DNA of 43,403 nt, taken from NCBI GenBank assembly GCA_030645455.1, contig JAUSNA010000062.1:1-43403 (forward strand), in the 5' to 3' direction. This DNA comes from Candidatus Levyibacteriota bacterium (GTDB taxonomy: Bacteria; Patescibacteriota; Microgenomatia; Levybacterales; GWA1-39-11). Made by a program: the position numbers and the translations under genes. Each line of letters begins with the position of its first letter. Within the stretch, counting starts at the first letter, position 1. The notes under the pieces are model-generated. The model searched no databases. It was not told where the DNA came from and saw nothing but the letters and a program-made list of their open reading frames with translations. This document shows, piece by piece, positions 1,271 to 23,556 of the stretch.

Positions 1271-1669
1271 TTATTGAATCCCTCCCTGTTGTTGTTCTTG
1301 AGGTGTATTTTGTCTTATTGCGTTAAGTGCCTCTTCAACCTTATTCAATTGAGCTATGTCTTCAGTTCTTTGGGTTTCTTCCTGTTCGGAACTCTTAGCA
1401 TCGGCATCGGCAACTCCTAGCTCTGGGGTGTTGGCGTCTGACTGGGAAATAAATAGTTGCTCAAAAATCTTCCATTTCTCTGCGACCTCAGTTAGTAGGA
1501 GTGTGGCCTCCTCATCTGTGACAATTTGGTTTAACCGATCCTGAAGGTAGCCCGCTATTTGTGCCGCGTCGGATTCTGCTATCTGGCCGTTTTGCAGTGC
1601 TTCAGTGAGACGGTTTGTGAGAGATATTGCAACTTTATCACGATAGGTTAAGAAGGCATTTTGATCCAT
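1271..1669 (-). CDS. Hypothetical protein, 132 aa
   Basis: ORF abutting the downstream coiled-coil gene on the same strand; no recognisable domain. Confidence 0.7.
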   Translation of the reverse strand: MDQNAFLTYRDKVAISLTNRLTEALQNGQIAESDAAQIAGYLQDRLNQIVTDEEATLLLTEVAEKWKIFEQLFISQSDANTPELGVADADAKSSEQEETQRTEDIAQLNKVEEALNAIRQNTPQEQQQGGIQ

Positions 1670-1711
1670 ATTCTCATTGAAGCATACTGGCTATTTAAAT
1701 TCAAGGAAAGC

Positions 1712-2008
1712 TTAGATCGTGGGGTTTTTGATTTGGTCAACGCCTGTAAGTGCTGATATCAAGCTTACAATAAAAAAGGAAAGAAAGATAATGATAAGGC
1801 CTATTATGGCATATGTCACCGTCTTTTTGGCTCCATCAATCTTTTGTTGATCTCCTTTGGAGGTAATATACATGATTCCTGCATAAATAATCAAAAAGAG
1901 TGCAACGATACCTGCAAATACAAGAGCTGCATTGACAACGTTCTTTATGATGATAGGAATGCATGCAAGGGTTGCGACATCGCCATTTTCAAGACAGGCT
2001 GTCCACAT
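1712..2008 (-). CDS. VirB2/TrbC-like two-TM pilin-type protein
   Basis: Two hydrophobic helices around the motif YAGIMYITSKGDQQKIDGAKKTVTYAIIGLIIIFLSFFIV, shared with the neighbours. Confidence 0.75.
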   Translation of the reverse strand: MWTACLENGDVATLACIPIIIKNVVNAALVFAGIVALFLIIYAGIMYITSKGDQQKIDGAKKTVTYAIIGLIIIFLSFFIVSLISALTGVDQIKNPTI

Positions 2009-2011
2009 AGA

Positions 2012-2419
2012 TTATTTGAAGTCTGCAATGTTTGGTAATTTTAGACTGAAGAGGCTCAAACCGAAGAGTCCAAGCACCAAGTTGAGTATGAAGAATGCAA
2101 GAAAGACAATTATAAGTCCAATAACTGCAGCGATAATCTGATTGCGGGCAGCTTCAACGCCTCCCTTATCTCCACCGGAGGTGATCCATTTAATGCCTCC
2201 CCAGATAAGGAAGAACAGGGCGATAAGAACCGCTATGATAAAAGCGATAGTTATGACAAATCCCAAAACGGCGCCAAGGTCATTAAATCCGCAAAGAACG
2301 CTAAATTGTCCTGCTTTAGGACATGGGTTGAGATTGTCGTTTGTCGCTTGTGCAAATACTTGGGGGGCACTCATGAGAAGTGCCGGAAAAGCTGAGGCAA
2401 AACCTAGTATTTTTTTCAT
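2012..2419 (-). CDS. VirB2/TrbC-like two-TM pilin-type protein with signal peptide
   Basis: N-terminal signal sequence; LIWGGIKWITSGGDKGGVEAARNQIIAAVIGLIIVFLAFFIL. Confidence 0.75.
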   Translation of the reverse strand: MKKILGFASAFPALLMSAPQVFAQATNDNLNPCPKAGQFSVLCGFNDLGAVLGFVITIAFIIAVLIALFFLIWGGIKWITSGGDKGGVEAARNQIIAAVIGLIIVFLAFFILNLVLGLFGLSLFSLKLPNIADFK

Positions 2420-2480
2420 TACTTCTTATTGTTATCAGGTTTAAAAATGAATGTCAAGAGGCGGGCGGTGTATGGCAATA

Positions 2481-2825
2481 TTAAAGTGACACATTAAAGA
2501 TATCTATTTTGAAGAATGAACCCATGAGGGAGACGAGAAAAAATGATAAGAATGCGATGAGTAGGCCAACGATAGCGTAAATAATTGTCTTTCTTGCACT
2601 TTCGACTTTTGTTTTATCGCCCTCGGAGGTGATCCAATTGAGCCCTCCGTATACTAGAAAAGCAAGAGCTAGAAGGACGCAGACTACCAATAAAATCGTT
2701 ACGCCAAATCCGATTATTTTGCCGCCGTCTCCCGAAAGTCCTCCCGTGGGAACACCCGAAGGTGCCTGGATTTCTTGGCTTGTTCCGTCAGGACCGGGAA
2801 TTTTAATGGATAAAAGTTTATTCAT
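2481..2825 (-). CDS. VirB2/TrbC-like two-TM pilin-type protein
   Basis: LVYGGLNWITSEGDKTKVESARKTIIYAIVGLLIAFLSFFLV. Confidence 0.75.
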   Translation of the reverse strand: MNKLLSIKIPGPDGTSQEIQAPSGVPTGGLSGDGGKIIGFGVTILLVVCVLLALAFLVYGGLNWITSEGDKTKVESARKTIIYAIVGLLIAFLSFFLVSLMGSFFKIDIFNVSL

Positions 2826-2831
2826 AGAAAA

Positions 2832-4223
2832 TTAACTAAAACCGGGAATTTTCAAAATATCCCCAGCTATTACTGATAGTATCACAAGAGAGAAAATAAT
2901 GAAAAACAATCCAACAATTGCAGAGGTTAGTGTTTCTCGAGCGCCTTTAATTATTTCGGGATTGCCTCGGGAGATCATAAGTCTATAACCGGAGAATATT
3001 ATTAGGAGAAGGGCACCGAGCCCGGCAATTGCAAGCACTATTGAAAAGAGGCGGGTAATAAACCCAACGGGAGTTAGTTGGATGGGGCCAATCGCCGTAT
3101 CGATTGATTTGCAGTCGAGAGGATTAGTAACGTAGGGCATTTCTTTATTGCAGGGAAGTGGTACGGGGTTTTCTCCAGACCCATTGATAAGATTTAAAAG
3201 GTTGAATAATTTTTTTCCATCAACCCCCCTGGGGTCTAATAATGGTTTTTCGCAAAGATTTTTTTTAGGATCGGTGCCGATTGTACAGGTAATATGCATA
3301 TAGGTAAAACCTCCCTGGCAATCATCGCTTCTGATGTCATTTTCGCTATTTTGCTCGTTTATCTTAAAGATATATTTTCCGGGAACGGTAAATCCTTTTT
3401 GAACAAGATCTTTGCTGTCGGCCCCAGAGTAATGCATCGTATCTTGTTGCGGGAGGGGGAATTGGAATGTGCGGGGGTTGATGGATTTATCTAGCCAGTC
3501 GCATTCCTCCTTTTTGTATCCCGGCCCTTCAAGAACTACCTGATAATTGTTTCTATTTTTTCCATCAGGTTTAATAACACTTTGTTTTATTGCAACTTCA
3601 AATTTTGTCCCGGGGACAAGGCCGGTGTTGGGAGTAATGGTAACCTCCGGCGCTCCATGATTAACATAAAATCCGGCGCGTGCAATCGCCACATAGTTAT
3701 CAGCTTTATCGTAAATAGTTATGATGTGAAAGCTGCCCGCATGGAAATAGTGCTCATTTTTCGGATTACAATCACCCTTTTTATAGAGGTCGCTTTTTCC
3801 CTTGCCACAGACGGTGATAGTGTCGCCTTCGAATACATCACCAACATCGTTTAGTCTTTTCTTGACCATATCCTCGTCCTTAATTCCATTTGCCGTGAGT
3901 AGTTGTGTGAGTTTTTCTTGTGGAAGGGATGCTATTATGGGGTTGCCGATACAATAATCGTTTCTCAAACAAACTTTGTAGTCACCCGTCGAAAGATCAA
4001 GACCGGGAAATGCCACTTTTACGCTTGGGGTAAGATCAGAAATATAATTTTCTGGTTGTTCATTTGTGGGGAATTGCGGCGGGTCGGTAGTAAACGTATT
4101 GACATCCTCGACAACAGTTGTTGCGGGAGTGGCGGAGTTGGGAGTTGGTGTTTGTGCATAGAGTGGAGTACCAAACCTAAAGAAAAATGCAGTAAAAAGA
4201 AGTAGTGTGAGCAGTTTTTTCAT
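2832..4223 (-). CDS. Secreted/membrane protein with C-terminal VirB2-like two-TM module
   Basis: Signal peptide, large extracellular-type region with Cys residues, then C-terminal IFSGYRLMISRGNPEIIKGARETLTSAIVGLFFIIFSLVIL matching the neighbouring small proteins. Confidence 0.75.
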   Translation of the reverse strand: MKKLLTLLLFTAFFFRFGTPLYAQTPTPNSATPATTVVEDVNTFTTDPPQFPTNEQPENYISDLTPSVKVAFPGLDLSTGDYKVCLRNDYCIGNPIIASLPQEKLTQLLTANGIKDEDMVKKRLNDVGDVFEGDTITVCGKGKSDLYKKGDCNPKNEHYFHAGSFHIITIYDKADNYVAIARAGFYVNHGAPEVTITPNTGLVPGTKFEVAIKQSVIKPDGKNRNNYQVVLEGPGYKKEECDWLDKSINPRTFQFPLPQQDTMHYSGADSKDLVQKGFTVPGKYIFKINEQNSENDIRSDDCQGGFTYMHITCTIGTDPKKNLCEKPLLDPRGVDGKKLFNLLNLINGSGENPVPLPCNKEMPYVTNPLDCKSIDTAIGPIQLTPVGFITRLFSIVLAIAGLGALLLIIFSGYRLMISRGNPEIIKGARETLTSAIVGLFFIIFSLVILSVIAGDILKIPGFS

Positions 4224-4309
4224 GTGATTCTATGATACCCTAAATTTGTTGGATTGTTAAATTGTTTCATTGTTAATTTTAGCAATCATGCAATGGATAA
4301 GTGTACCAA

Positions 4310-5644
4310 TTAGTCCGACAGCTTGTACCCTTTTCCCTTTATTGTGTGGATATATCGGGGGTTTGCCGGGTCTTGCTCAATTTTTTTTCTGAGGCGGTAA
4401 AATATTTGGTCAAGCGCCTGGTCGGTTACTCCTTCTTGTGATTTTTGATCTCCCCAAATGGACTGAATAATTTCATCTTTTGAGGTAAGGCGCTCTTTAT
4501 TTTGAATAAGGAACCGTAACAGCCTAAATTCTGAAGGGGAAAGCCTGTCCGTTATCGGACTTCCTCCGACAAGCACCTCATTTCTTTCTTCGTCGTAGGT
4601 TATTTTCTCAATGCTTTCAACAGGAACAGTCGTAATATAATTGGCAAAAAGCGGGATGGTAATGCCATCCTTCCCAAACAATCCTGAGGCCGTAAGGTAC
4701 GGGTGAAGGTCTGAGATATCATCATATGAAATATTTTTTTTGAGAGCTATCTGCTCTGATGGTAAAAGAGCATTCCATATTTCATATAATGCTCCCTGTA
4801 TGGTTGGCCTTTTGAGAAGATATTCTTCAATATTTTCAATTCTATTTTCCTCGCTAATTATTGCCTCATATGATAGTTTTGCGATTTTTGCGTGACCTCC
4901 TGAAAGCTTTATGATTTCTTGTTTAACTTTTTCATCAAGAGATTTTCTCGCCGCTTTTTCTATATAAGAAAGCCGAAAATTCATACCCACCTCGTCAAAA
5001 AGGGTAGTGTAGATGACGTTTTCTGCAACAAGATCATGATAATCCGCAAGAAGTAGGGGATCTATCGTTTCTTCCAGGGGTCTTGTGAGTGAAAAAATAC
5101 TCCCAAATCGGTATTTGGCGTGGTTTCGAAGAACCCGAAGATTTGTAAAAAATTGAGAGGTGATGGTGGGAATGAGTATGTCAAATTTATCGAATAACAA
5201 GTGAATGGTAAGTTTTTTTTCAATAGAGAGATAATCAAGGCTCTTTTTGAGAGACTGAAAAAGGATCATCTCATCGGGTACTTCAAGTCCCTCCTTTAAG
5301 TACTGGTTTATTTCTTTTGATTCTTCGGCAAATCTTCTTTCCCCCAAGGAAAATGCGAGGGAGATCAGGATAAATTTAGTAATGTCGGCAAGAGGACGTC
5401 CTTTTATTTCCGAGCAATCGATGTAGACAAAATGTAGATATTTTTCGTATTCCCCAAAATTTTCAAAGCGTGCGTCTTTATTGTAGGAAAGAAGGCGAAA
5501 TATATTGCTTTTTCCGCTTCCCGGAAGACCAACCAATTGTGAAGAAAGTCCTTTTTCAAGATATGGAATAAATTGCTGAATTTCCTTTTTTCGTGTCGCA
5601 GCAGGATAAAGCGAATCGAAATATTTAAGTGGTGTAAGTTGCAT
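4310..5644 (-). CDS. P-loop ATPase fused to a C-terminal OmpR/PhoB-type winged-helix domain (transcriptional regulator)
   Basis: Walker A LVGLPGSGKSNIF, Walker B-like LLFDKFD; C-terminus SPSEFRLLRFLIQNKERLTSKDEIIQSIWG...QIFYRLRKKIEQDPANPRYIHTIKGKGYKL is Trans_reg_C-like. Confidence 0.8.
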   Translation of the reverse strand: MQLTPLKYFDSLYPAATRKKEIQQFIPYLEKGLSSQLVGLPGSGKSNIFRLLSYNKDARFENFGEYEKYLHFVYIDCSEIKGRPLADITKFILISLAFSLGERRFAEESKEINQYLKEGLEVPDEMILFQSLKKSLDYLSIEKKLTIHLLFDKFDILIPTITSQFFTNLRVLRNHAKYRFGSIFSLTRPLEETIDPLLLADYHDLVAENVIYTTLFDEVGMNFRLSYIEKAARKSLDEKVKQEIIKLSGGHAKIAKLSYEAIISEENRIENIEEYLLKRPTIQGALYEIWNALLPSEQIALKKNISYDDISDLHPYLTASGLFGKDGITIPLFANYITTVPVESIEKITYDEERNEVLVGGSPITDRLSPSEFRLLRFLIQNKERLTSKDEIIQSIWGDQKSQEGVTDQALDQIFYRLRKKIEQDPANPRYIHTIKGKGYKLSD

Positions 5645-5735
5645 ACTCTTAATAATACACCAATATAAGATGTTTGTGAGAGGCCTGTGAGCTTGTTATC
5701 AAGTAGAACTGGTGTCAATTTCCTAGAATTGGCAT

Positions 5736-8700
5736 ATGGAAAATGAATTGACACCAAGGACAAATGTCCCGTATCCTGTAAGAAGGAATACTATGGATGA
5801 TAATGTCGAGAAAAACGAGGAGTCTTTGGATGAGGCGGTAGGAACGCCAGTTGAAAAGAGTGAGGAAGAAAAAAAGGCACAGCAGGAGAAGGAAAAGAAA
5901 GCCAAATATGTGGCGGTATCAAAAGAGCAGCAGGATAAGACCCGTAAGGCCTGGGAGGAATGGAATAAAAAAATCCAAGAGATGGGCCAACAAGTTCCGG
6001 AGCGCCACAAAGAACAAGTAGAGGGTTTTATTGAAAAGGGAATTGAGCCAAGGCATATTATGGCCGGAGGTGCATCTGACGGTGGGCCATTTGCAGCTTT
6101 TAATGCTGAAAAATATAAAGGCACAAGGCTTGAGGAGGTTGCGAATGATCTTAAGGAAGCGGGAAGAAAAGAGGAAATAACAGAGGAGAGGCTCGGGGAA
6201 ATTAAAAAAAGGGTAGACACGATGACCCAATTGGGGCAGATATCGGAGGATGAAAACCAGCGGTTCAATAGCGATATCAACGAGATTATTATAAAAAATC
6301 AAAATCAGTCACCAGAATCGGGTAGTCAAGGATCGGGACCGGAAAGCACTAATGCAGTAGGCGCAGACAATTCAGTGGAGGGTCAAAAAGCACGCGACGA
6401 TGTTGCTTTTAAGCTGTCTAACGAAAGGCAACTGATAAAGGACCTGGGGACCCCAGGAGTAAATGACAATGAAATACTCCAAAATATTTTCCAGCAACAA
6501 GATCATATATTGGCGGGTTTTGATAAAAAACAGTTTAACGATAAGCAGAAGGAGTTTTTGGAAATATTTGGTGATAAGGTGCCAACAATTGAGGAGAAAA
6601 AAAAGAAACTCAACGACTTTTTGGATAACGTTGTTGCTATAAGAAAGAAAAATTATCTTGAGGGAAAAGTTGAAGTGCCAAGAGAAATTGAATCCATCCA
6701 GGACCTTGCACGCTTTATCATGCAGCGTCAGGAGAGTGATCTGTATGGTCTTGGAGGAAAGTACGCACTTATTGAGCGGATAGAAAACGATAAGGGGGAG
6801 TTGGAGGAGAGATTTAGGGCCGACAATTTCTTAATTTGGGTAAGAGATCAAATTATACAACTTCATGATGATAATAGAACCGGGGAGATGCAGCCTTTGT
6901 CTCAGGTGGCTATCGAAACACAGATAAGAACAGTTTCGATATATATGATGAACCGGTTTCGCGGTCAGTATTTTAAAGACGAGCAAACGCAAGAGATCAT
7001 GAATGATTTGGCGGATACGGCTGTTAATATGTGTTATCTTTTTGGTTTTTTCAGAAATATGGATCTTGCATACCAGCAGGTGATGAATAGCGATGAAGAC
7101 TTGCCAAAAACAATTGTTGGGATCCATGCAAAAAATGACGTCACACATGCTGATAATTGGGCAACCTTTTTATCAATGCCGGACCGCTTCGGACAAGCAA
7201 AAAGGGACGAAAAGGGTGGCGTTATTCGCGACGAAAAGGGGAACGTTGTTTATGATAGAGATTCTCGCGTGGGGGATGCAGAGCTTGTAGCAAATGATAT
7301 TTATTACAATCTTTCTGATATTAAAGAGCTAAGGGATATAGCCGGGTCAAAAGGTGCATTGGTGACTAAAGACGGGTTCAAAAGGACTTTGCTTTTACAG
7401 CAAATGGCTGCCGGAAAGAAGCATGAGTGGGACGGCGGCCCTGACACGCAGGAGGGATTTTATGATAAGGAGAAGGATAATTTTTACGTATTCAATCCGG
7501 ATACTAGGAAAAAGGATTATATTTTTAACAACGACGGGTCAATTAATGAAAAGAACTATATGACATTTGTGAATTTTCACAATGCTCCCACTCCGGATAA
7601 GACTACTATGGATTTTGTAAGAGATCTAATTCGTCTTACTATTGCCGAAAAAGTAGGAATAGAGTCGGGGTTTGCCAAGGACGGGGTAGAGCTTGCTGAA
7701 AGAAAAGCAAAATATGAGAAAATAAAGTCGGAGAAAAGCCCTGATGATGCAGAAAAAGACTATAAAAGACGAGTAAATGCTGCCCGCATTAACGCCAAAT
7801 TTGCGGAGTATTCATCATTCATCCAGCAGAGGCCATTAATGGTTGCTGCGAGAAATGATGTAAATAGGCGTGGGTATGACGCGTCGACCAAGCTTGATAT
7901 TAATTATATTATTCGCCAGTCAGGGTCCGGAACGGCAGGTCCGATTGGAAATACAGAATTTCTTAAGCACCAAATTTTGAAAAATTTTGGGGTTGATTTT
8001 GTTGCAGGGCTAAAGACTGAGAGTAAGAGATCCCCATACGAGATATTTAGAGATATACGCCATGTCATGAATGACTCTTCACTGAGTCAGGATCAGCGGG
8101 AGGATAAAAAGACAGCACTGCTTTCCGAGCTTAGGTTCCAGGCCAATGCCGCTCTTGACTATTCCTCAAATGCTATTAAGCGTTCGTATGATATTTTCCA
8201 TCAGGTCATTGATGCGCAAAGTTTGGATTTGAATAAAATTGTTACAAGAAATTTTTTGGAAGGCATTAAATATAACACAGCAGAATTTGAAAAACAGATA
8301 AAGGATGAATTTATAAAGCCGATGAGGTACGCATTTGCTTCAAATTCAGCACTTAAATACGGGCAGTTGTATAGGGGTTTTGAAAGACTGGACAAGAAGA
8401 CTAATATGCCAATTTACAGAGAGAAGACTCTTGCCGATCACATGTTTGGAGATGAGGTAATGGATGACATTCGGCAAGATGCGAAAAAAAATAAATTAGA
8501 CGTTGTTAAATATGATGAAAATGGCAACAAGATAGATCCCTCAACAATGACAGAGTACCAAAGATACCAGGAATTTTTGAACAGCAATGATGCAAGGGGA
8601 AGAATTGTGAAAAATATTGCCAGGGCCCGGCTTGCGGCAGAGCTTCGAAAGCACCGCAACCGGTGGGGTCCCTCAGAAAGATGGAATGCCGACATGATCA

Positions 8701-8939
8701 ATAAATTTCTTCTCGCTCTTGAAACCATTAAGGAATATGAAAAAGATGGGAATGGGGAGATTGTGCAAACGAATAAGGGGTTTTTCTCAAAGAAGGATAT
8801 TGCTTGGATAAGACAAAATAGTGGGACAGGATATAAATCAATGATATTGAAAGAAAGTATAACCAGCACTGCATCGGGGGTAGGAAAAGGGTTATTCGAA
8901 AGTTTTAAAGATTTTCTCGACAATACCTTTAAAAGTTAA
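5736..8939 (+). CDS. Giant hydrophilic protein, 1067 aa, function unknown
   Basis: Single long ORF, charged coiled-coil N-terminal part, no signal peptide; lies between T4SS-like genes. Confidence 0.85.
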   Translation: MENELTPRTNVPYPVRRNTMDDNVEKNEESLDEAVGTPVEKSEEEKKAQQEKEKKAKYVAVSKEQQDKTRKAWEEWNKKIQEMGQQVPERHKEQVEGFIEKGIEPRHIMAGGASDGGPFAAFNAEKYKGTRLEEVANDLKEAGRKEEITEERLGEIKKRVDTMTQLGQISEDENQRFNSDINEIIIKNQNQSPESGSQGSGPESTNAVGADNSVEGQKARDDVAFKLSNERQLIKDLGTPGVNDNEILQNIFQQQDHILAGFDKKQFNDKQKEFLEIFGDKVPTIEEKKKKLNDFLDNVVAIRKKNYLEGKVEVPREIESIQDLARFIMQRQESDLYGLGGKYALIERIENDKGELEERFRADNFLIWVRDQIIQLHDDNRTGEMQPLSQVAIETQIRTVSIYMMNRFRGQYFKDEQTQEIMNDLADTAVNMCYLFGFFRNMDLAYQQVMNSDEDLPKTIVGIHAKNDVTHADNWATFLSMPDRFGQAKRDEKGGVIRDEKGNVVYDRDSRVGDAELVANDIYYNLSDIKELRDIAGSKGALVTKDGFKRTLLLQQMAAGKKHEWDGGPDTQEGFYDKEKDNFYVFNPDTRKKDYIFNNDGSINEKNYMTFVNFHNAPTPDKTTMDFVRDLIRLTIAEKVGIESGFAKDGVELAERKAKYEKIKSEKSPDDAEKDYKRRVNAARINAKFAEYSSFIQQRPLMVAARNDVNRRGYDASTKLDINYIIRQSGSGTAGPIGNTEFLKHQILKNFGVDFVAGLKTESKRSPYEIFRDIRHVMNDSSLSQDQREDKKTALLSELRFQANAALDYSSNAIKRSYDIFHQVIDAQSLDLNKIVTRNFLEGIKYNTAEFEKQIKDEFIKPMRYAFASNSALKYGQLYRGFERLDKKTNMPIYREKTLADHMFGDEVMDDIRQDAKKNKLDVVKYDENGNKIDPSTMTEYQRYQEFLNSNDARGRIVKNIARARLAAELRKHRNRWGPSERWNADMINKFLLALETIKEYEKDGNGEIVQTNKGFFSKKDIAWIRQNSGTGYKSMILKESITSTASGVGKGLFESFKDFLDNTFKS

Positions 8940-11213
8940 TTAACCGGAGTTTTGTGGGGGACTTCCACCACCGCCTTCACGTCTTCTTTTTTCATCCTCA
9001 TCTGCACGGGCAAGCCCTGCATCAATAGATCTGTCAGATGCGCCACCGCCACCGCTTGAAGGTCCTTCTCCTCTTGCATCTCCTAGCGCTTCATTTACTC
9101 CCTCGGCAGCTCCTTCGCGTGCTGCTGCCTCCACACTCTCTGCGGATGGTCCTCCAAGTGTGATATTAATTCCACTTCTTCCCCCGCTGCCTCCACCATT
9201 TCCAGTCGCGCCGCTTGATGGTAGGGGTTCTGTTGATCCCTCAGTTGCTATGATCCCACTCTGAGAACCAAGGGTAGTGCGCGCTTGGTTTCGGAAGCTC
9301 TCCATTGCTTGTTTTACCTCCGGGGTGTCGTGGTCCGGAACGATTCCCTGCCTCATTGCCATTCTTCTTGCTTCAGCCTCAACTTGTGCATCTGACACAG
9401 GAGTTAGTGAAGGAGAGTGCGTAGTAGGTTGGGATGATTTGCTTCTAAATAGTCCAAACCTTTTTTTTGCTTGACTTGGCCCAGTTGCAATTGGAGAAGC
9501 TTCCGATTCGGGTTCTCCCCGCATCCTTCTTTCGTGTGCCCTTCTGGCATTCACTTTTTGTTCAATCCTTTTCCCTATGGGAGTTTTATTGAGCTTGAAT
9601 GCCCTTGCAACTTTTCCTCCCACCTTCATTGTCTGGTCATCAATTGTGCTGCGCAAAATCCCTTTGCTTCCATCTCTTTTTTCACCCATTAATTCTTTCC
9701 ATGCTCCTCCGATAGGTTTTGACACGTATCCTTGACCCTGTCCAATGGCTTTGCCAATGGCCGCTGTGTATTTCAACTCCGGAGCTTTCAGGGTGCTTTT
9801 AGTAATGGTTACCGCCTCCGGCATGATGAGGATGATGCCAAGTCCTAAAATGGAGGCAATAGCGTCACCGCTACTAGTGCCCGGGTTTCCAATGAGGGGC
9901 GGAACGAAGGTTCCGCTGGTGTTAAATGCCTGATCCTGCATGGTTTTTCCTATCATAAAAAGTACGACTACTGCTGGAAACGCTGCAAGGTTAGCAATAA
10001 GACTTCTTATCCAGGGGCCGACTCCTCCGGGGGCGCCGGGGAGTAATCCCCCAATTATCCAAAAAGGTGCAAAAATAACATCCAGGAAGATAAAAATGTA
10101 GGCTTTAATAAGCATGAACCATACTCTAAAAAGTGAGGTAAACACAGCAACCGAGATAATTAAGTAAGCAATTGCCATGGCAATAAGGCCTAGTATTTTT
10201 GTTCCCCCAACAAGCCCTACGATTGCTCCTATCGCCCCACCAATCAGTCCCCCAAATCCACCAAAGAGAGAGCCCCCAATAAAAGATCCGATTATTCCCG
10301 TAACAACCATTCCAATCCAGCTTCCAATACTGCCGGAGAAAAGAGAGCTTACCATTCCTCCAACCCCTTGAGCGGCGGGAGCTGCAATTCCATTAATTCC
10401 TCCAAGACTCCCCATAGCACTTACGGGATTCGTATCGATATTTGTCATTGTAGTTAACCCTTGGCTTTCAAATATATGAATAACAAGATAAATACCGACG
10501 TACATCATGTCTATCAAAAAACCAGCTATGGCATACGAGAGAGTAATAAGTACAAGTCCGATTATTATTTTTGGAATTTGGTTTTGTATTGTCATAATTG
10601 ACCTTGCGTCAATGTTAACCCTGAACATGATTCCAAGTCCCAATAAAATGAAGATAAATACAAACAAAAGATACGTTAAGTTTCTAAATGTTTTCCAAAT
10701 ATCAAGAACCGGTGTGAGTCCGACAAAGCCGATTCCTTTCCCAAATCCGGTTACTGTTGTCCCACCGCCTTCTTCAGCCGGAAATGCTGCAAGAGAATTT
10801 TTTGTTATTCCAAAATGTGACGCTAGATACTGACCATAATGAGATGTTGAAACAGGGATATTAAATGTTCCCCCAATCATGCCACCCATAATAGAAGCAA
10901 GGCCTGCACCGTTCTCAACATACCCGATTTTTTTCGTGACAGGGTCTATTCCAAGGCACTTTTCATCAGGGTTAAGCATATCTACTCCCCCAACAAAACA
11001 TGTAGCGGTTGATAGAACTTCAATAAATACATTCTGTGTGTATGTATGAAAATTTTGAGGGACGTCAGGATTGGTATTGAGGGGATATGCAGTAGTTTTT
11101 TCTTGAGGCACATCATTCGCAATAGGGACTGAGGTTTGTGCGTGAGAAGTATTAGCGAAAATGAAGAAGATGGGAAAAAATAATAGAGCAGCGAATAACT
11201 TTTTCATAACCAC
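8940..11213 (-). CDS. VirB6/TrbL-like polytopic membrane protein (T4SS-associated)
   Basis: Signal peptide, many TM helices, Gly-rich hydrophobic segments, long disordered charged C-terminus. Confidence 0.7.
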   Translation of the reverse strand: MVMKKLFAALLFFPIFFIFANTSHAQTSVPIANDVPQEKTTAYPLNTNPDVPQNFHTYTQNVFIEVLSTATCFVGGVDMLNPDEKCLGIDPVTKKIGYVENGAGLASIMGGMIGGTFNIPVSTSHYGQYLASHFGITKNSLAAFPAEEGGGTTVTGFGKGIGFVGLTPVLDIWKTFRNLTYLLFVFIFILLGLGIMFRVNIDARSIMTIQNQIPKIIIGLVLITLSYAIAGFLIDMMYVGIYLVIHIFESQGLTTMTNIDTNPVSAMGSLGGINGIAAPAAQGVGGMVSSLFSGSIGSWIGMVVTGIIGSFIGGSLFGGFGGLIGGAIGAIVGLVGGTKILGLIAMAIAYLIISVAVFTSLFRVWFMLIKAYIFIFLDVIFAPFWIIGGLLPGAPGGVGPWIRSLIANLAAFPAVVVLFMIGKTMQDQAFNTSGTFVPPLIGNPGTSSGDAIASILGLGIILIMPEAVTITKSTLKAPELKYTAAIGKAIGQGQGYVSKPIGGAWKELMGEKRDGSKGILRSTIDDQTMKVGGKVARAFKLNKTPIGKRIEQKVNARRAHERRMRGEPESEASPIATGPSQAKKRFGLFRSKSSQPTTHSPSLTPVSDAQVEAEARRMAMRQGIVPDHDTPEVKQAMESFRNQARTTLGSQSGIIATEGSTEPLPSSGATGNGGGSGGRSGINITLGGPSAESVEAAAREGAAEGVNEALGDARGEGPSSGGGGASDRSIDAGLARADEDEKRRREGGGGSPPQNSG

Positions 11214-12253: not shown

Positions 12254-12703
12254 ATGCATTGTCCATATTGCAATTCAAACGATACGGAAGTCTCAGAAAC
12301 CAGAGTCGCGGAAGACGGCAGTAATATCCGCAGGAGGAGGCTTTGTGGTGGATGCAAGAAGAGGTTTACAACATACGAGAGGGTTGAAAACATCATGCTT
12401 TTAGTAAAGAAGAAGGACAGTAGAAGCGAGCGGTTTTCAAGAGACAAATTACGGGGTGGGATATTAAAATCGGTCGAAAAGACAACGGTGACGCTTGAGC
12501 AGGTCAACAAAATTGTGGACGAGGTGGAAAAAGAATTGCTAAGCGCTGATAGTGTTGAAGTAGACAGCAAGAAAATCGGAAGGTTGGTTGCTGCCCGACT
12601 TAAAAAAATAGATAAGATAGCATACATAAGGTTTGCAAGCGTTTTTCAGCACTTTGTTGATATAGAAGATTTTGAAAGAGAAGTAAAAAAGCTATTGAAG
12701 TAA
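12254..12703 (+). CDS. nrdR: Transcriptional repressor NrdR (Zn-ribbon + ATP-cone)
   Basis: MHCPYCNSNDTEVSETRVAEDGSNIRRRRLCGGCKKRFTTYERVE followed by an ATP-cone region; canonical NrdR. Confidence 0.95.
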   Translation: MHCPYCNSNDTEVSETRVAEDGSNIRRRRLCGGCKKRFTTYERVENIMLLVKKKDSRSERFSRDKLRGGILKSVEKTTVTLEQVNKIVDEVEKELLSADSVEVDSKKIGRLVAARLKKIDKIAYIRFASVFQHFVDIEDFEREVKKLLK

Positions 12704-12835
12704 GTACTAAATACTAATTTCGAAGCACGAAACAAATTAGAATAACCAAAACATAAAATTAAAAATAATTTGGAAATTGTAATTTAGATATTGTTTCGAA
12801 TTTCGATATTCGGATTTAGAATTTTAATAAATAAT

Positions 12836-15226
12836 ATGGAATTAACAGGAATTAGACAAAAAGTATTTCTAGACCGCTACGCCTTAAAAGATAAAGACGG
12901 AGAGCTCATTGAAAAGACTCCGGAGGAAATGTGGAAAAGAGTTGCGTGGGGAATTTCTCAAAATGAAAAGAAAAAAGATCAAGCCCATTGGGAAAAAGAG
13001 TTTTATAGAGTCATGGATGAATTTAAATTTGTCCCAGCAGGCAGAATTCTTTCAGGAGCAGGGACAAATTACCAGGTAACGTATTTTAATTGTTTTGTTA
13101 TTCCTTCCCCCAAAGATTCCAGAGACGGAATTTTAGAAAGTCTTAAGCAACTGGTTGAAATTCAAAGCAGAGCGGGTGGAGTAGGGCTAAATTTGTCTTC
13201 TCTTCGTCCCCGCGGGGCCAGGGTTAAAAAAGTAAATGGCACTTCATCGGGTCCTGTCACGTGGGCCGGACTTTTCTCATACGCAACACATGACGTTGTA
13301 CAGCAGGGAGGAAGTAGGCGTGGAGCAACAATGCTTATGCTTTGGGATTGGCACCCTGATATTGAGGAATTTATTACCGTTAAAGAGGATCTGTCAAAAA
13401 TTAACGGCGCGAATTTGTCCGTTTGTGTTTCTGACAGTTTTATGGAAGCTGTAAAGGCAGATGCCGATTGGGATTTGGTATACCCTGACATTGATGACCC
13501 TGAATATGATGCGAAATGGAATGGGGAAATTACCGAGTGGAGAGCCATGGGGAAGGCTGTAAAAGTTCACAAAACTGTAAAAGCCAGGTATTTATGGGAT
13601 CTTATTTGCAATGCTGCTTGGAAAAGCGCTGAGCCTGGACTGCATTTTATGGAGCGTTCAAATAAAAGAAGTAACACATGGTATTTTGAGCACTTGATTG
13701 CTACCAACCCTTGTGGAGAACAGCCATTGGGCGCATGGGCTGTATGTAATTTGGGTGCAATGAATTTATCAGCATATGTAAAAGATGCGGACCTTTCAGC
13801 AGAAAAAGCTGGGTGGTTTGATTTTGAGTCTTTTGGTAACGACGCAAAGGTAGCAATGAGGCTTTTAGATAATGTAATTGACCAGACATATTACTTTTTT
13901 AAAGAGAACGAAAAGTGCGCAAAAGAAATCCGCCGCACCGGGCTTGGTATCATGGGGCTTGGGGATGCTCTGATCAAAATGCAGCTTCCTTACGGGTCTG
14001 ATGATTCGATGCCTGTTATCGAAAAGATATTTAAAGTTCTTCGCGATAGTGCATATGAGGCATCCGCCGATTTGGCTGAAGAGAAGGGTTCCTTCCCAAA
14101 ATATGTGAAAGAGAAATACTTGGAAGGGTATCATATAAAGGCTTTACCTAAGAAAATTCGTGAAAAAATTGAAAAGCAGGGAATAAGAAATGCTGTTCTT
14201 CTGACCATTGCCCCGACAGGTACGACATCTCTTGTTTCGGGGGTTTCCTCAGGTGTTGAGCCTGTTTATGAGTTCTCATTTTTGAGGAGATGGAGAGGTG
14301 GAGAAGAGATTATTTACCATCCATTATTTGAAGAATGGAAAAAAGCGCATCAAGAGGCGGAAAAGCCTAGATATTTTGTAAGCGCAAATGACCTGACTCC
14401 ACTTGAACACGTAAGAGTGCAGGCAGTTGCCCAAGAATATATTGACTCTTCAATTTCAAAGACTGTCAATGCGCCAAATTCCCACACGATTGATGACGTA
14501 AAAACGCTTTACATGATGGCATATGACATGGGACTAAAGGGCGTCACATATATGAGGGATGGATCACGACAGGGAGTTTTGGAGAGGGTAGATGAGAAGA
14601 AAAAAGAGGACGTTAAAGAAGCGCAAAGTATGCCAATCCGGAAAAGACCTTTGGCACTCTCGGGAGTCACACACGAAACCCAGACCCCTCTCGGAAATAC
14701 CTTCATTACGATAAATCACGATAGTGAAGGTAAACCTTTTGAGCTTTTTATCAATTCCGGAAAATCAGGAAGTGATGTAATGGCAATGTCTGAGGCGTTG
14801 GGACGCATTATGTCTATGGTATTAAGAATGCAATCTCCCGTTGAGCCCCGCGAAAGAATTCGTGAAATGATAGATCAGTTGACCGGAATTGGCGGGGGAA
14901 GATCTGTCGGATTTGGACCCAATAGGGTCAGATCCCTTCCTGATGCGGTTGCAAAAGTTTTGGCCGAGCATTTTGAATTCCGGGTGAACGGACATGTAGC
15001 AGACAAGCTCCCCATGAAAGCGATCATGGCAGATACCGCAAAAGAGTCAGAAAAAGTAGAAGTAAAAGAAAGTCCAAGCGTTGTGACGCAAGCACCACTT
15101 CCTATTGTTGCAGCATCGCTTCAGGCTCATCCGAATGCGGATCTTTGCCCCGAGTGTGGAGCTGCCGCATTTGTTCACGAAGAAGGATGTGCCAAGTGCT
15201 ACGCGTGTGGACACGCAGAGTGCTAG
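12836..15226 (+). CDS. nrdJ: Adenosylcobalamin-dependent (class II) ribonucleoside-diphosphate reductase
   Basis: NPCGEQPL, LLTIAPTGTTSLVSGVSSGVEPVYEF and C-terminal Cys-rich tail CPECGAAAFVHEEGCAKCYACGHAEC. Start taken at ATG 12836 rather than the track's 12791. Confidence 0.92.
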   Translation: MELTGIRQKVFLDRYALKDKDGELIEKTPEEMWKRVAWGISQNEKKKDQAHWEKEFYRVMDEFKFVPAGRILSGAGTNYQVTYFNCFVIPSPKDSRDGILESLKQLVEIQSRAGGVGLNLSSLRPRGARVKKVNGTSSGPVTWAGLFSYATHDVVQQGGSRRGATMLMLWDWHPDIEEFITVKEDLSKINGANLSVCVSDSFMEAVKADADWDLVYPDIDDPEYDAKWNGEITEWRAMGKAVKVHKTVKARYLWDLICNAAWKSAEPGLHFMERSNKRSNTWYFEHLIATNPCGEQPLGAWAVCNLGAMNLSAYVKDADLSAEKAGWFDFESFGNDAKVAMRLLDNVIDQTYYFFKENEKCAKEIRRTGLGIMGLGDALIKMQLPYGSDDSMPVIEKIFKVLRDSAYEASADLAEEKGSFPKYVKEKYLEGYHIKALPKKIREKIEKQGIRNAVLLTIAPTGTTSLVSGVSSGVEPVYEFSFLRRWRGGEEIIYHPLFEEWKKAHQEAEKPRYFVSANDLTPLEHVRVQAVAQEYIDSSISKTVNAPNSHTIDDVKTLYMMAYDMGLKGVTYMRDGSRQGVLERVDEKKKEDVKEAQSMPIRKRPLALSGVTHETQTPLGNTFITINHDSEGKPFELFINSGKSGSDVMAMSEALGRIMSMVLRMQSPVEPRERIREMIDQLTGIGGGRSVGFGPNRVRSLPDAVAKVLAEHFEFRVNGHVADKLPMKAIMADTAKESEKVEVKESPSVVTQAPLPIVAASLQAHPNADLCPECGAAAFVHEEGCAKCYACGHAEC

Positions 15227-15232
15227 GTTTTT

Positions 15233-15305
15233 ATTTTATACAGGTAATCACGGTGTAAATCCGTGAGTGTGCCGCAACTGTCAAACTCAGAAAACTGTAT
15301 AAAAT
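15233..15305 (+). ncRNA. Compact cobalamin riboswitch upstream of the adenosyltransferase
   Basis: Core GGTAATCACGGTGTAAATCCGTGAGTGTGCCGCAACTGTCA (B12 box CCGCAACTGT) enclosed by a perfect 11-bp closing stem ATTTTATACAG (15233-15243) / CTGTATAAAAT (15295-15305). Confidence 0.85.
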
Positions 15306-15325
15306 CTACCGCCCGAGCAAGGCTT

Positions 15326-15880
15326 ATGACTATTTATACAAAAAAAGGAGACAAAGGAAAAACGTCTTTAGGCAGTGGTGTAAAAGTTTGGAAAAATTCA
15401 GAAAGGGTTGAGGCGTATGGGACGATTGACGAATTGAATTCTATTTTAGGTGTCGTTTCGTCTGAATGTGTGAACATAAAAAAGGGATATTCGAGTTTTC
15501 TTGCTGAGATAATTCATCAAGTGCAAGACGACCTATTTTCTATTGGGTCATACCTTTCCAATCCCGCAAACTCAAATTTAATTGAATTATTATCTCAAAG
15601 AACTTTAGTTTTTGAAAAATATATTGATGAAATGACTGAAAAAATGCCTGAACTCTCAAATTTTATTCTTCCCGGAGGAGGAAAGGTGGGAGCACTTTTT
15701 CAAAACGCCCGGGCTGTGTCAAGGAGATGCGAAAGAAATATTGTTGCGTTGTCCAGAAAAGCAACAATCAACGAAGACGTTTTGCAATATATTAACCGAT
15801 TGTCTGACCTGCTTTTTACCATGAGCAGGTGGGCCAATCACAACGAAAAAAATAAGGAAATTATTTGGAAGAGAAGATAG
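15326..15880 (+). CDS. Cob(I)alamin adenosyltransferase, PduO type
   Basis: MTIYTKKGDKGKTSLGSGVKVWKNSERVEAYGTIDELNSILG and NFILPGGGKVGALFQNARAVSRRCER; start at ATG 15326 immediately after the riboswitch. Confidence 0.93.
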   Translation: MTIYTKKGDKGKTSLGSGVKVWKNSERVEAYGTIDELNSILGVVSSECVNIKKGYSSFLAEIIHQVQDDLFSIGSYLSNPANSNLIELLSQRTLVFEKYIDEMTEKMPELSNFILPGGGKVGALFQNARAVSRRCERNIVALSRKATINEDVLQYINRLSDLLFTMSRWANHNEKNKEIIWKRR

Positions 15881-15884
15881 TTGA

Positions 15885-15990
15885 AAGGGTGAATTCCGTT
15901 TAAATCGGAAACTGTGCCGCAACTGTGAGTTTTGCTTGATGATAATGGAGGTCCGCTACCGTTAAAATCGGCTAAACGAGTCAGAACCCC
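15885..15990 (+). ncRNA. Second cobalamin riboswitch
   Basis: AGGGTGAATTCCGTTTAAATCGGAAACTGTGCCGCAACTGTGAG...GAGTCAGAACCCC: conserved core and B12 box, with an apparent 3' receptor strand. Confidence 0.85.
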
Positions 15991-16016
15991 GTAAAGTCTT
16001 TTCGAGCAAGAAGCTT

Positions 16017-17297
16017 ATGATTACTGAAGCAAGACCATATTTACCAACCCCAAAAGAAGCCAGTTCTTGGCAAGACTTACGGAAAAATGCATCTATTAAT
16101 GGTGCTCATGATGCGCTTATCCCCCAGGAATATGCAGGAGTGACGAAAAGTGCCCCTTTTGCATTTGATTTAGGCCGCGAAAACCAACTGGCTCAAGAGT
16201 ATGGTAAAAATTACCAGCAATATTTTTTGGAGAATGCGCATTACTACGCAAAAGAGTCATATGGGAGAGTTCCGATAAGCGAGTACGAGCACAAGATCAT
16301 GGCAGGAAAAGATGGCAAGCCAGAATTAGTTTTGGGGCCTGAAAATATTTCAGCAAGAGACAGTTATTTGGTACCTGTTCTTGATAAGACAAAGCCCGAG
16401 TGGTATCAGCGGCGCTCTATGGGAGATGTGGTGTGGGTTGAAAATATGGAAAAGATGTTGGAGAACGCTGAGGATGGTGACACCTATGTTGATTTTAGTC
16501 CGACAGAATACAACGTTGACGTAGAAGAGAGAAAAAAATGGGGATACGGATACCATAGTTTTGTCAGACTTCATAAAGTGGTGACTGAGGACGGTCAAAA
16601 AAAGCTTGTGTCTAGAGCAATTAGAAATTATTTAGATGCGCCCGAACAAACAGCCCTTTTTGAGCAATTAACAGGCGAGGTATTAGACGCTTCTCAAATG
16701 CTTGGAAGAGTAGAAAGAGTAAATCCGAATTATTCTCAAGCGTATGTCAAAGCATTGGCTTCTAGATTGTATGATTCAACGCCTATCGAGCGGAAAATTA
16801 TTCCCCCATCTGAATATTTACAAAATATTAAAAGCGAGGAAGAAATGAATATAGCTCTTAAAAAAATTGATGCATGGCTTGAGGTGGTTTATGAAATGAT
16901 GGAGAGAGGGGAGGATACCCACGATATACTAAAAAAATTCCGCGGATGGGAAAATGCATTGAGAGATTACGTAAATGAAAAAAGTTCTTTGGAAAAATTC
17001 AGTAAAATGTCACGACAAGACATGAAAGTTGCACTCTATCAGGAGAGCGATCAAGTCAAGGATCTTTTGGAAAGAGCTTATGAACCAGGGACAAATGGCT
17101 GTGGGGCAGGGTCAGGATTTTCCGAAACAGAGAGGAATATGACATCAATGACATATGAATCTATGACCAAAACAACCGAGGGGGCATGCCCTGAAATTAA
17201 ATGTAAAAAATGCACATGGAAGGCAAATGAGCGAGAGGTTGACGATATAACTAAAGGAAAACTTAATAAATGCCCCCGGTGCGGTTGGAAACCATAG
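16017..17297 (+). CDS. Uncharacterised 426-aa protein with C-terminal CxxC...CxxC zinc ribbon, downstream of a cobalamin riboswitch
   Basis: Long ORF starting 27 nt after the riboswitch core; C-terminus CPEIKCKKCTWKANEREVDDITKGKLNKCPRCGWKP. No family recognised. Confidence 0.85.
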   Translation: MITEARPYLPTPKEASSWQDLRKNASINGAHDALIPQEYAGVTKSAPFAFDLGRENQLAQEYGKNYQQYFLENAHYYAKESYGRVPISEYEHKIMAGKDGKPELVLGPENISARDSYLVPVLDKTKPEWYQRRSMGDVVWVENMEKMLENAEDGDTYVDFSPTEYNVDVEERKKWGYGYHSFVRLHKVVTEDGQKKLVSRAIRNYLDAPEQTALFEQLTGEVLDASQMLGRVERVNPNYSQAYVKALASRLYDSTPIERKIIPPSEYLQNIKSEEEMNIALKKIDAWLEVVYEMMERGEDTHDILKKFRGWENALRDYVNEKSSLEKFSKMSRQDMKVALYQESDQVKDLLERAYEPGTNGCGAGSGFSETERNMTSMTYESMTKTTEGACPEIKCKKCTWKANEREVDDITKGKLNKCPRCGWKP

Positions 17298-21505: not shown

Positions 21506-21652
21506 ATGCCAATTACACCCTCAGAAGCCAGAAAAACCCTAGGTAATAAAGCAGAAAAAATGTCAGATAAAGACATTGAAAACCTTCTTATAGCATTGCG
21601 TCAGCTTTGTAGTGGTATTATAGATAGCGTAACTGAAGAAAAAATTACATGA
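21506..21652 (+). CDS. 48-aa small protein translationally coupled to the serine recombinase
   Basis: MPITPSEARKTLGNKAEKMSDKDIENLLIALRQLCSGIIDSVTEEKIT*; stop overlaps recombinase start (ATGA). Below the size cutoff of the ORF track. Confidence 0.7.
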   Translation: MPITPSEARKTLGNKAEKMSDKDIENLLIALRQLCSGIIDSVTEEKIT

Positions 21653-23193
21653 AAGCACTTATTTATTGTAGAGTTTCTAGCCAAAGACAAGTAGATGAGG
21701 GTAACGGTTTAAGTTCTCAGGAGCAAAGATGTAGGGGTTATTGTAAGAATAAAAATTATATTGTCGAAAAAGTCTTCTCTGATGGGGCGGTCTCGGGAAA
21801 GCTTTTTGAAAGACCAGCAATGCGAGAACTTCTAAACTATGTTGATAATCATCCCTCAGAAAAATATGCAGTTGTGTTTGACGATTTATCAAGGTTTTCA
21901 AGAGATATGGAGGCTCAGTTACGATTAAGGACAGAATTTAATGCAAGGGAACTTAAGCGGGAATGTTTAAATTTTACGTTCGATGAGACTCCAGAAAGCG
22001 AATATGCAGAACTTGTGCTTACTGCTGGAAATCAATATCAAAGACAATCCAATAGACGGCAGGTTATACAAAAGCAAAAAGCTAGGCTTGAGAAAGGTTA
22101 CTGGGCATTCTATCCACCCCTAGGACTGTCAGCGGTAGCAGATCCTTTACACGGTAAACTACTTCAATCAATAGAACCGTATGCAACCATCATCAAGAAA
22201 GCACTTGAAAGCTATGCTGACGGGCTCTTAAGCACTCAAGAAGACGTCCAAGCTTATATTCTAGGTAAATATAGAGAACTAGGTATAAATAAGAAACTTT
22301 CGATGAATGGAACTCAACACATATTGAAACAAATTCTCTATGCAGGTTACATAGAATACCCTAAATGGGGTGTGGAAAGAAGAAAAGCTCAACACAATGG
22401 CTTTATATCGATCGAAACATTTGAAAAAGTACAATTAAGAATAAAAGCTAAAGGAAAGAAATGGACACGACATGATTATTCACAAGATTTTCCATTAAGA
22501 ACACACTTAATTTGTACTCACTGTAATAAGCCCTTAACAGCTTCTTGGAATACGGGAAGACACAAACGCAAATACCCTAACTATTTTTGCATTAATAAGG
22601 TATGTATATACAAAAACAAGGTCATAGGTAGAAATAACATGGAATCACAATTCGTGGAACTATTAAATAAGGTGCAGTTGGACAATGAGGTACTTGAAGT
22701 AGCTAGGATTGTTTTGTCAGACATGTGGAACTCCCGTAAAAGTAACTACGAGGAGATGAAAAGACTTAGCCACCGTCGCATTTCAGAAGTTGAGAAAAAA
22801 GTCAGTAGTCTACTCGAGCGGATAACCAAAACTACAAGCGATGAACTGGTTAGTATTTACGAAGGTGAAATTGAAAAGCACACAAAGGAAATTAAGGATA
22901 TAAAAAAGGAATTATTGGTAAATCCCTATGCTGATGAAAGATTTGGAACCGCTATAGACAATTTGTTCGCAACGTTAAAAAACCCTATAGATATGTGGAA
23001 AAACGATAACGTAAATAACAAAAAAGCGGTTCTATTTGCGTACTTCGGTGGCAAAGTGGAATACGATTACATTAAAGGCTTTGGAAACGCTAGTTTAGCC
23101 TATCCTATCAGTCTAATCGGTGGTATAGGAAGCAAAAAAAACTCTGGTGTGGAGATGGGGGGTAATGAACCCCCGTCCAAAAATCATATCTAA
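21649..23193 (+). CDS. Large serine recombinase (resolvase + Recombinase + zinc beta-ribbon)
   Basis: MKALIYCRVSSQRQVDEGNGLSSQEQRC catalytic N-terminus, LICTHCNKPLTASWNTGRHKRKYPNYFC zinc ribbon, coiled coil near the C-terminus. Confidence 0.93.
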   Translation: MKALIYCRVSSQRQVDEGNGLSSQEQRCRGYCKNKNYIVEKVFSDGAVSGKLFERPAMRELLNYVDNHPSEKYAVVFDDLSRFSRDMEAQLRLRTEFNARELKRECLNFTFDETPESEYAELVLTAGNQYQRQSNRRQVIQKQKARLEKGYWAFYPPLGLSAVADPLHGKLLQSIEPYATIIKKALESYADGLLSTQEDVQAYILGKYRELGINKKLSMNGTQHILKQILYAGYIEYPKWGVERRKAQHNGFISIETFEKVQLRIKAKGKKWTRHDYSQDFPLRTHLICTHCNKPLTASWNTGRHKRKYPNYFCINKVCIYKNKVIGRNNMESQFVELLNKVQLDNEVLEVARIVLSDMWNSRKSNYEEMKRLSHRRISEVEKKVSSLLERITKTTSDELVSIYEGEIEKHTKEIKDIKKELLVNPYADERFGTAIDNLFATLKNPIDMWKNDNVNNKKAVLFAYFGGKVEYDYIKGFGNASLAYPISLIGGIGSKKNSGVEMGGNEPPSKNHI

Positions 23194-23556
23194 AAACATC
23201 TACAAGCGTAGTTAATTAATAATTGTCGTTTTGCTATTAACCAATTAACAGGAAGAGCAATTCCAAGATTTTATTTTTTGGACAATAATCAAATCATTTT
23301 TATTGTCCTATCCCAAACTGTGTTTATACTCATGCCTAATCCGTTTAGGAAAAGAAGCGACATGAATACGCCTGCTTACGCAGCTGCAAACGCAGGGACG
23401 AATCCCCTTGAAGGCATAAGGTCAGCAGCGAACTGCTTAACCTTGCGGCTGATGGACGTGCCGTCAGCATGTATTTTTGATCCTTTTTTACGGCTTTGAA
23501 TCATTGCCGGCTTGCAGTTTTTAAAGTACAATTCTTGTCGATACAATTGCATCCCC
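23150..23556 (-). ncRNA. ssrA: tmRNA
   Basis: 5' GGGGATG (23556-23550) pairs with 3' CATCTCC (23157-23151); T-arm GGACGGGGGTTCATTACCCCC; tag-like frame ending AFAAA* at 23376-23378; stem with UUCG loop AAGGTTAAGCAG-TTCG-CTGCTGACCTT; smpB immediately upstream. Confidence 0.88.

Follow-up and report, generated by a model that had tools for sequence, protein, structure and literature searches.

A reading frame for a 426-aa protein of no recognisable family lies behind a cobalamin riboswitch in the DNA analysed here, which raises the question of what a B12-controlled protein of this kind does for its cell. The stretch, 43,403 nucleotides of a Levybacterales genome and called the window below, had been the subject of an earlier note that proposed a new B12-responsive factor for the class II ribonucleotide reductase (RNR) in a lineage lacking B12 synthesis. 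The source organism is a small, probably symbiotic bacterium. We refer to the protein as P1 (P0001 for the window copy, encoded at 16017..17297 on the + strand).

An nrdJ operon with two cobalamin riboswitches

The window operon has the order nrdR-nrdJ-[AdoCbl-II switch]-adenosyltransferase-[RF00174 switch]-P1, with all features on the + strand. Its sequence identifies the first gene of this conserved neighbourhood as nrdR (12254..12703), which encodes a transcriptional repressor of RNR, and almost every complete related locus has an NrdR-like gene 5' of nrdJ. The nrdJ gene (12791..15226, likely start ATG at 12836) encodes an AdoCbl-dependent class II RNR (TIGR02504, 593.8 bits, above the cut-off of 399.95). 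Directly behind its stop codon begins an AdoCbl-II riboswitch aptamer (15227..15305; RF01689, 49.3 bits, above the gathering threshold of 36.5), followed by the gene for a PduO-type cob(I)alamin adenosyltransferase (ATR; 15326..15880; TIGR00636, 185.3 bits, above the cut-off of 108.45; PF01923, 180.6 bits). Both this first switch and the ATR gene between the two switches had been overlooked in the earlier note. The second cobalamin riboswitch, of the RF00174 type (15838..16007, conserved core 15885-15990), overlaps the 3' end of ATR. As both riboswitches lie 3' of nrdJ, the RNR gene is outside the switched units.

Some relatives also carry two cobalamin switches in one operon (L026, L031, L076, L085, and L111). 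In three related loci the NrdJ frames are overlong, at about 1,160-1,500 aa against a norm of about 810 aa (L027, 5304-8840; L037, 2-4495; L230, 1691-5182), and the insert in L037 starts in an intein-like manner (GGCFTKDAKI). Elsewhere in the window (21649-23193 and 23147-23556), a recombinase-like ORF with the start MKALIYCRVSSQRQVDEGNG extends into the tmRNA gene, which is on the opposite strand, at its 3' end, an arrangement reminiscent of an element integrated at this gene.

The riboswitch directly before P1 scores 31.4 bits with RF00174 against a gathering threshold of 31.5, that is, 0.1 bit below the curated cut-off, and Infernal run at 'gathering' accordingly reports no match. Its E-value is 5e-6 in a local search and 1.6e-6 for the whole 1.2-Mb genome. 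The core strands are GGGTGAATTCCG...AAATCGGAA, CCGCAACTGT at 15917-15926, and GAGTCAGAACCCC, which ends at 15990, 26 nt before the P1 ATG at 16017, exactly where the earlier note had placed a cobalamin element. For an independent comparison we used R1, a covariance model from 14 aligned aptamers that precede relatives of P1, with the window left out. R1 has exactly two matches in the window, at 15867-16001 (65.2 bits, E 1.4e-14) and at the AdoCbl-II aptamer (15222-15307, 45.3 bits, E 2e-9), with E-values that are rough. The covariance search thus bears out the element as a member of the cobalamin families.

In the P4 helix of the 14 aptamers, four pairs show compensatory change. Scored over the whole structure, covariation was 0.479, whereas shuffles gave 0.133 and slid structures no more than 0.11; the slid control is biased in favour of our structure because this was drawn by hand from the same sequences. 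The fairer shuffle control counted 27 cells with both sides changed, a value reached in 0 of 500 shuffles and one that kinship may inflate too. The window aptamer retains the conserved core, namely the B12-box strand, P4 with compensatory changes, and P13. With the RF00174 and AdoCbl-II (RF01689) families of clan CL00101, the P1-linked aptamers share core motifs, a covarying P4, the B12-box strand, and a P13 hairpin that overlaps the Shine-Dalgarno sequence or is then followed by a terminator. They are intermediate between the two Rfam models and often fall under one or both cut-offs.

The putative expression platform in the window is a P13-like hairpin, TCTTTTCGAGCAAGAAG (15997..16013, + strand), recognised from sequence and folds, with a Shine-Dalgarno-like AAGAAG in its 3' strand (16008-16013). 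Three bases separate its end from the ATG, a spacing that suggests translational control. Of 21 related aptamers scanned, most have a similar hairpin (TCTTCCGAGCAGAAG or TCCCGAGCAGGAG) behind them. The Shine-Dalgarno sequence itself forms the 3' strand of this hairpin in several families (TCCCGAGCAGGAG..ATATG), and in much of the Levybacterales family f2 the hairpin is followed by ACTCCTCGGAA..GAGGAGTTTTTTT-ATG. In the f2 layout GAGGAG serves as the Shine-Dalgarno sequence and also as the 3' strand of a hairpin resembling a terminator, other parts of which can pair with the 5' strand of P13. Both layouts are known from OFF switches of the P13/kissing-loop type. By their anatomy, the P1-linked platforms look like AdoCbl OFF switches. 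The targets of other cobalamin switches in these genomes, which are a class I RNR cluster (G125), DUF4430-DUF6580 genes (G086 and G191), and a CobQ-x-P1 operon (G167), fit repression by AdoCbl. The switch of G125 (L229, 5139-5209, + strand) precedes fragments of the class I RNR cluster, and this genome encodes NrdJ and P1 as well.

Riboswitch and P1 across the Microgenomatia

Searches of relatives identified full-length homologues of P1. A profile of 14 P1 sequences (A1) then identified P1 in 88 of 374 Microgenomatia genomes, and a profile of 76 sequences (A3) extended this to 164 of 374 at E<=1e-3, with mostly one copy per genome. No credible member was found in a phylum-wide sample outside Microgenomatia, which gave four weak matches; of the two inspected, one was a prolyl-tRNA synthetase and the other a short, acidic ORF with a zinc ribbon. 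With P0001 as the sole query, neither viral contigs nor an initial scan of genome contigs gave a match. Judged from these profile searches, P1 founds a fast-evolving, undescribed family of Microgenomatia. Most of the genomes are metagenome assemblies, in which some loci are truncated by contig ends, and P1 starts were taken as the first in-frame start, which leaves some distances off.

In order to relate riboswitches to P1, 74 genomes were searched whole with both Rfam models, and the matches were joined to P1 coordinates and pooled with the R1 search, with local coordinates partly converted by hand from genome coordinates. A cobalamin riboswitch is present at P1 or its operon in 66 of the 74 loci, directly before P1 in 48 (usually at a distance of 5-120 nt) and before the operon in 18. 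Of the remaining eight P1 genes, two (L077 and L093) are at the edge of a contig. The pooled riboswitch matches in P1 loci number 73, all of them on the P1 strand. Whether homologues follow cobalamin riboswitches had been set as a test in advance, and the answer is that they do so in the large majority of loci. Starting instead from the riboswitch, we inspected 20 riboswitch loci from genomes that had scored as P1-negative. In 10 of them a divergent P1, assigned to the same family by profile comparison (match 99.5%, E 3.5e-23), came next; the other ten had mainly DUF4430-DUF6580-like genes there, or a different protein, P2, in families f10 and f25.

P1 stands right after ATR in 42 of the 74 loci. 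With an ATR-P1 gap of 0-22 nt the switch precedes ATR, and with a gap above about 100 nt it is mostly within the gap. Where P1 is beside neither nrdJ nor ATR, it has a switch of its own (G083, 58.5 bits; G392, 53.8; G246, 49.7; G388, 48.0; G310, 44.3), and in L084, in which P1 is convergent to ATR, P1 still has its own switch. Two Levybacterales loci without P1 that have kept nrdJ, ATR, the ribbon gene, a 160-aa gene, and the coupling-protein gene (L038 and L041) have no cobalamin riboswitch. It is conceivable that the riboswitch serves ATR or downstream genes with P1 as a passenger ORF, as the switch position at the shortest ATR-P1 gaps would allow. Yet the 48 loci with a switch directly before P1 include stand-alone P1 genes and the convergent L084, the absence of P1 goes with the absence of the switch in L038 and L041, and conservation of P1 as a family spans a class; a passenger role is thus hardly credible. 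The recurrence of the same switch-P1 pairing throughout the class makes it very likely, as far as genome comparison can indicate, that P1 is a hitherto undescribed factor under B12 control and assists the cell in obtaining or using the vitamin. Our literature search found no paper joining cobalamin riboswitches with Microgenomatia, an absence that is weak evidence.

The P1 protein and the B12 genes of its genomes

The earlier note had described a 426-aa ORF with a C-terminal zinc ribbon and no recognisable family. The ORF is present as described, and window P1 has no match in Pfam or NCBIfam; 76 members of the family gave weak, scattered, or zinc-ribbon matches only. A comparison with PDB sequences identified no relative apart from the zinc ribbon. 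'Cake' propeller entries of the PDB that matched P0001 (E 3e-7) were rejected, as this value is a sum over repeats, each with an E-value above 5. The most constant features of the family are an early Glu, an Arg, a Ser-Pro motif, a Cys-Gly in a Gly-rich loop, and the C-terminal zinc ribbon. Mean column identity in the A3 alignment is only 14%, with the C terminus the most conserved part, and its six invariant columns include five cysteines, located in the loop and the ribbon. In window P1, the conserved G-C-G motif (C362-G363; codons at 17097..17105, + strand) is in a Gly/Ser-rich loop of low confidence, with C362 invariant in both A1 and A3, and the zinc ribbon comprises C391, C396, C399, C419, and C422 by its sequence (17187..17294, + strand). 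P1 proteins are soluble, without a convincing membrane segment.

The last 36 residues of window P1 resemble a separate zinc-ribbon protein of about 57 aa, the gene of which is located just downstream of P1 in most Levybacterales; the window protein thus looks like a fusion or a ribbon swap. This small gene (for example L031, 6699-6836: CYxIxCKxCGWxASDxEVxxIQKGxLTxCPxCGWKP) is kept even in L038 and L041, which are without P1.

A single-sequence AlphaFold2 model of window P1 has a pLDDT of 36.9 and is uninformative except for the ribbon, the only part modelled with confidence. A model of the relative in L202 (361 aa, 11 sequences) reached a pLDDT of 74.7 and a pTM of 0.65, and predicts an alpha-beta N-terminal domain, a helical middle, a low-confidence stretch at the Cys-Gly motif (pLDDT < 50), and the ribbon. 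Foldseek with this model found nothing in the PDB at E < 0.001 (best E 0.19, TM-score by query length at most 0.18 among the matches listed) and no significant match among viral models. Pfam, NCBIfam, PDB, and Foldseek searches gave no fold or family match suggesting B12 binding by P1. As a speculation, the invariant loop cysteine (C362) might be a cobalt ligand or a thiol.

Cobalamin riboswitches often control B12-independent substitutes, for example metE or nrdAB, and in G125 one precedes a class I RNR cluster. P1 might in principle be such a substitute enzyme. This is very unlikely given that P1 has no enzyme family or fold match, that five of its six invariant A3 columns are loop or ribbon cysteines, and that P1 sits with ATR and not as an alternative to it.

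Among the approximately 118 genomes with P1 at E<1e-10, all but three (G015, G213, and G220) have NrdJ, which is present in 303 of the 374 genomes overall; this co-occurrence was counted by reading two lists of matches. The expected linkage of homologues to nrdJ is thus observed at the level of genomes. The corrin-synthesis marker CbiC is present in 0 of 49 P1 genomes, in agreement with the proposed lack of B12 synthesis in the lineage. DUF6580 occurs in only 14 of 49 P1 genomes, and the PduO-type ATR in 0 of 8 P1 genomes tested in family f5, which rules out that P1 is tied to either as a rule. With DUF6580 patchy and ATR absent in f5, there is no single constant B12 partner except NrdJ. The neighbours of P1 include ATR, DUF4430-DUF6580 (L089 and L118), and CobQ (L024, L118, and L128).

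In L228 (3117-4053), L231 (401-2914), and L244, genes for DUF4430 (transcobalamin-like) and DUF6580 (ECF S-like) proteins have their own cobalamin riboswitch; these assignments were made by eye or by a PF20221 match, whereas those in other loci were confirmed with Pfam. From its gene context, the pair behind its own switch is a candidate for B12 uptake.

P1 might instead be a partner of NrdJ (activator, inhibitor, reactivating factor, or thiol donor) and in this way keep the class II RNR working under AdoCbl shortage. P1 genomes are a near-subset of NrdJ genomes, P1 is in an operon with nrdJ in Levybacterales, both proteins end in Cys-rich ribbons (59 of 74 P1 proteins have a Cys among their six C-terminal residues), and one P1 member matches NF006417 weakly (E 0.022). 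Zinc ribbons, however, match one another generically, P1 and nrdJ are far apart in families f5 and f9, and the position of both switches 3' of nrdJ leaves the RNR outside the switched unit. We consider an NrdJ partner unlikely. The earlier proposal of a B12-responsive factor is only partly upheld: the gene is B12-responsive by its anatomy and linked to class II RNR, but P1 is far from nrdJ in several families and f5 genomes have no PduO-type ATR, so that a physical tie of P1 to nrdJ is only a possibility.

Type IV secretion genes and the role of P1

In 28 of the 74 loci P1 has a gene for a VirD4-like coupling protein (TrwB_AAD_bind/DUF87) behind it, on its own strand, and in other families P1 is beside PrgI and TraG/VirB4 genes. 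The window has a type IV secretion system (T4SS)- or pilus-like cluster directly upstream of the nrd operon (1271-11213), with a T4SS_pilin (PF18895, 1715-2008), a large helical protein (5736-8939), and a VirB6-like protein (8940-11213); similar genes are found around P1 in other families. P2, the longer protein of families f10 and f25 (560-880 aa; L250, L253, L254, L256, L258, and L259), is near a cobalamin riboswitch in all of these loci except L259, and in L258 the order riboswitch-P2-[125-170 aa]-coupling protein gives it a position similar to that of P1. The one P2 scanned had no match in Pfam. Homology of P1 and P2 was rejected as collinear but not significant (E 0.043).

On this basis P1 could be a T4SS or pilus substrate or accessory induced by B12 starvation, handed to the VirD4-like coupling protein, and taking B12 from a host or neighbour cell. 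Besides the genes near P1, the similar place of P2, and the pilin cluster in the window, a soluble, fast-evolving protein without an obvious membrane segment and with its C terminus most conserved would suit such a role. By contrast, P1 is usually on the strand opposite to its neighbours in T4SS clusters, many loci have P1 by ATR, CobQ, or DUF6580 with no T4SS genes near, the coupling-protein and 160-aa genes persist without P1 and riboswitch in L038 and L041, and the P1-P2 comparison is not significant. We regard this role as rather unlikely. A wider proposal sees P1, and in other lineages the apparently unrelated P2, as the main gene under AdoCbl repression in a whole class of Patescibacteria and as a B12-starvation-induced T4SS or pilus component or cargo; judged from the gene neighbourhoods, this appears decidedly unlikely.

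The best explanation of the window region is an AdoCbl-supply operon, in which P1 would be made at low AdoCbl and would restore supply, most likely as a cytosolic cobalamin-handling factor; on the comparative data we give this reading somewhat better than an even chance. The predicted AdoCbl repression of P1, together with its switching along with ATR in an auxotroph, makes a role in raising AdoCbl supply by capture, processing, or escort the most plausible one. When AdoCbl is plentiful, it would bind the aptamer and the P13 hairpin would form, which would stop translation of P1 (or transcription, in relatives with a terminator-like hairpin). At low AdoCbl, P1 would be made, and it may take up, process, or pass scavenged cobalamin towards ATR and NrdJ, perhaps via its invariant cysteine. 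Against this explanation, an identity of 14% would be unusual for a core metabolic factor, and P1 is repeatedly found close to type IV secretion genes, which allows a different reading.

Compared with PduO-type ATR operons, the window has the same ATR, immediately before P1 and with its own AdoCbl switch; the difference is P1 itself, an extra gene of no known family that also occurs without a PduO-type ATR (f5). MMACHC/CblC and BtuM act in B12 processing, and BtuM is a membrane protein. The likeness of P1 to these proteins is in the proposed role only, namely to process or escort cobalamin that enters the cell, ahead of its adenosylation; P1 has no sequence match to them in Pfam, NCBIfam, or the PDB and, unlike BtuM, no obvious membrane segment. 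The accessory B12 proteins of the BtuH/BtuG type were found through B12 transport loci of Bacteroidetes and, like P1, were proteins of unknown function first recognised by their B12-locus context (PMC8941943, PMC6143338). As portrayed there, they belong to surface transport systems, whereas P1 has no obvious membrane segment and, the ribbon apart, no detected sequence relation to solved structures.

Microgenomatia with NrdJ need AdoCbl for DNA precursors, the P1 genomes tested are without the corrin-synthesis marker, and most of those tested are without a recognised uptake gene of the DUF6580 kind. If P1 is a T4SS component or cargo, B12 would be scavenged via cell-to-cell contact under riboswitch control. 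As a near-always single-copy gene behind cobalamin riboswitches, P1 provides a direct and testable handle on B12 acquisition in Microgenomatia, and work on P1 would allow a large set of hypothetical proteins to be named by function.
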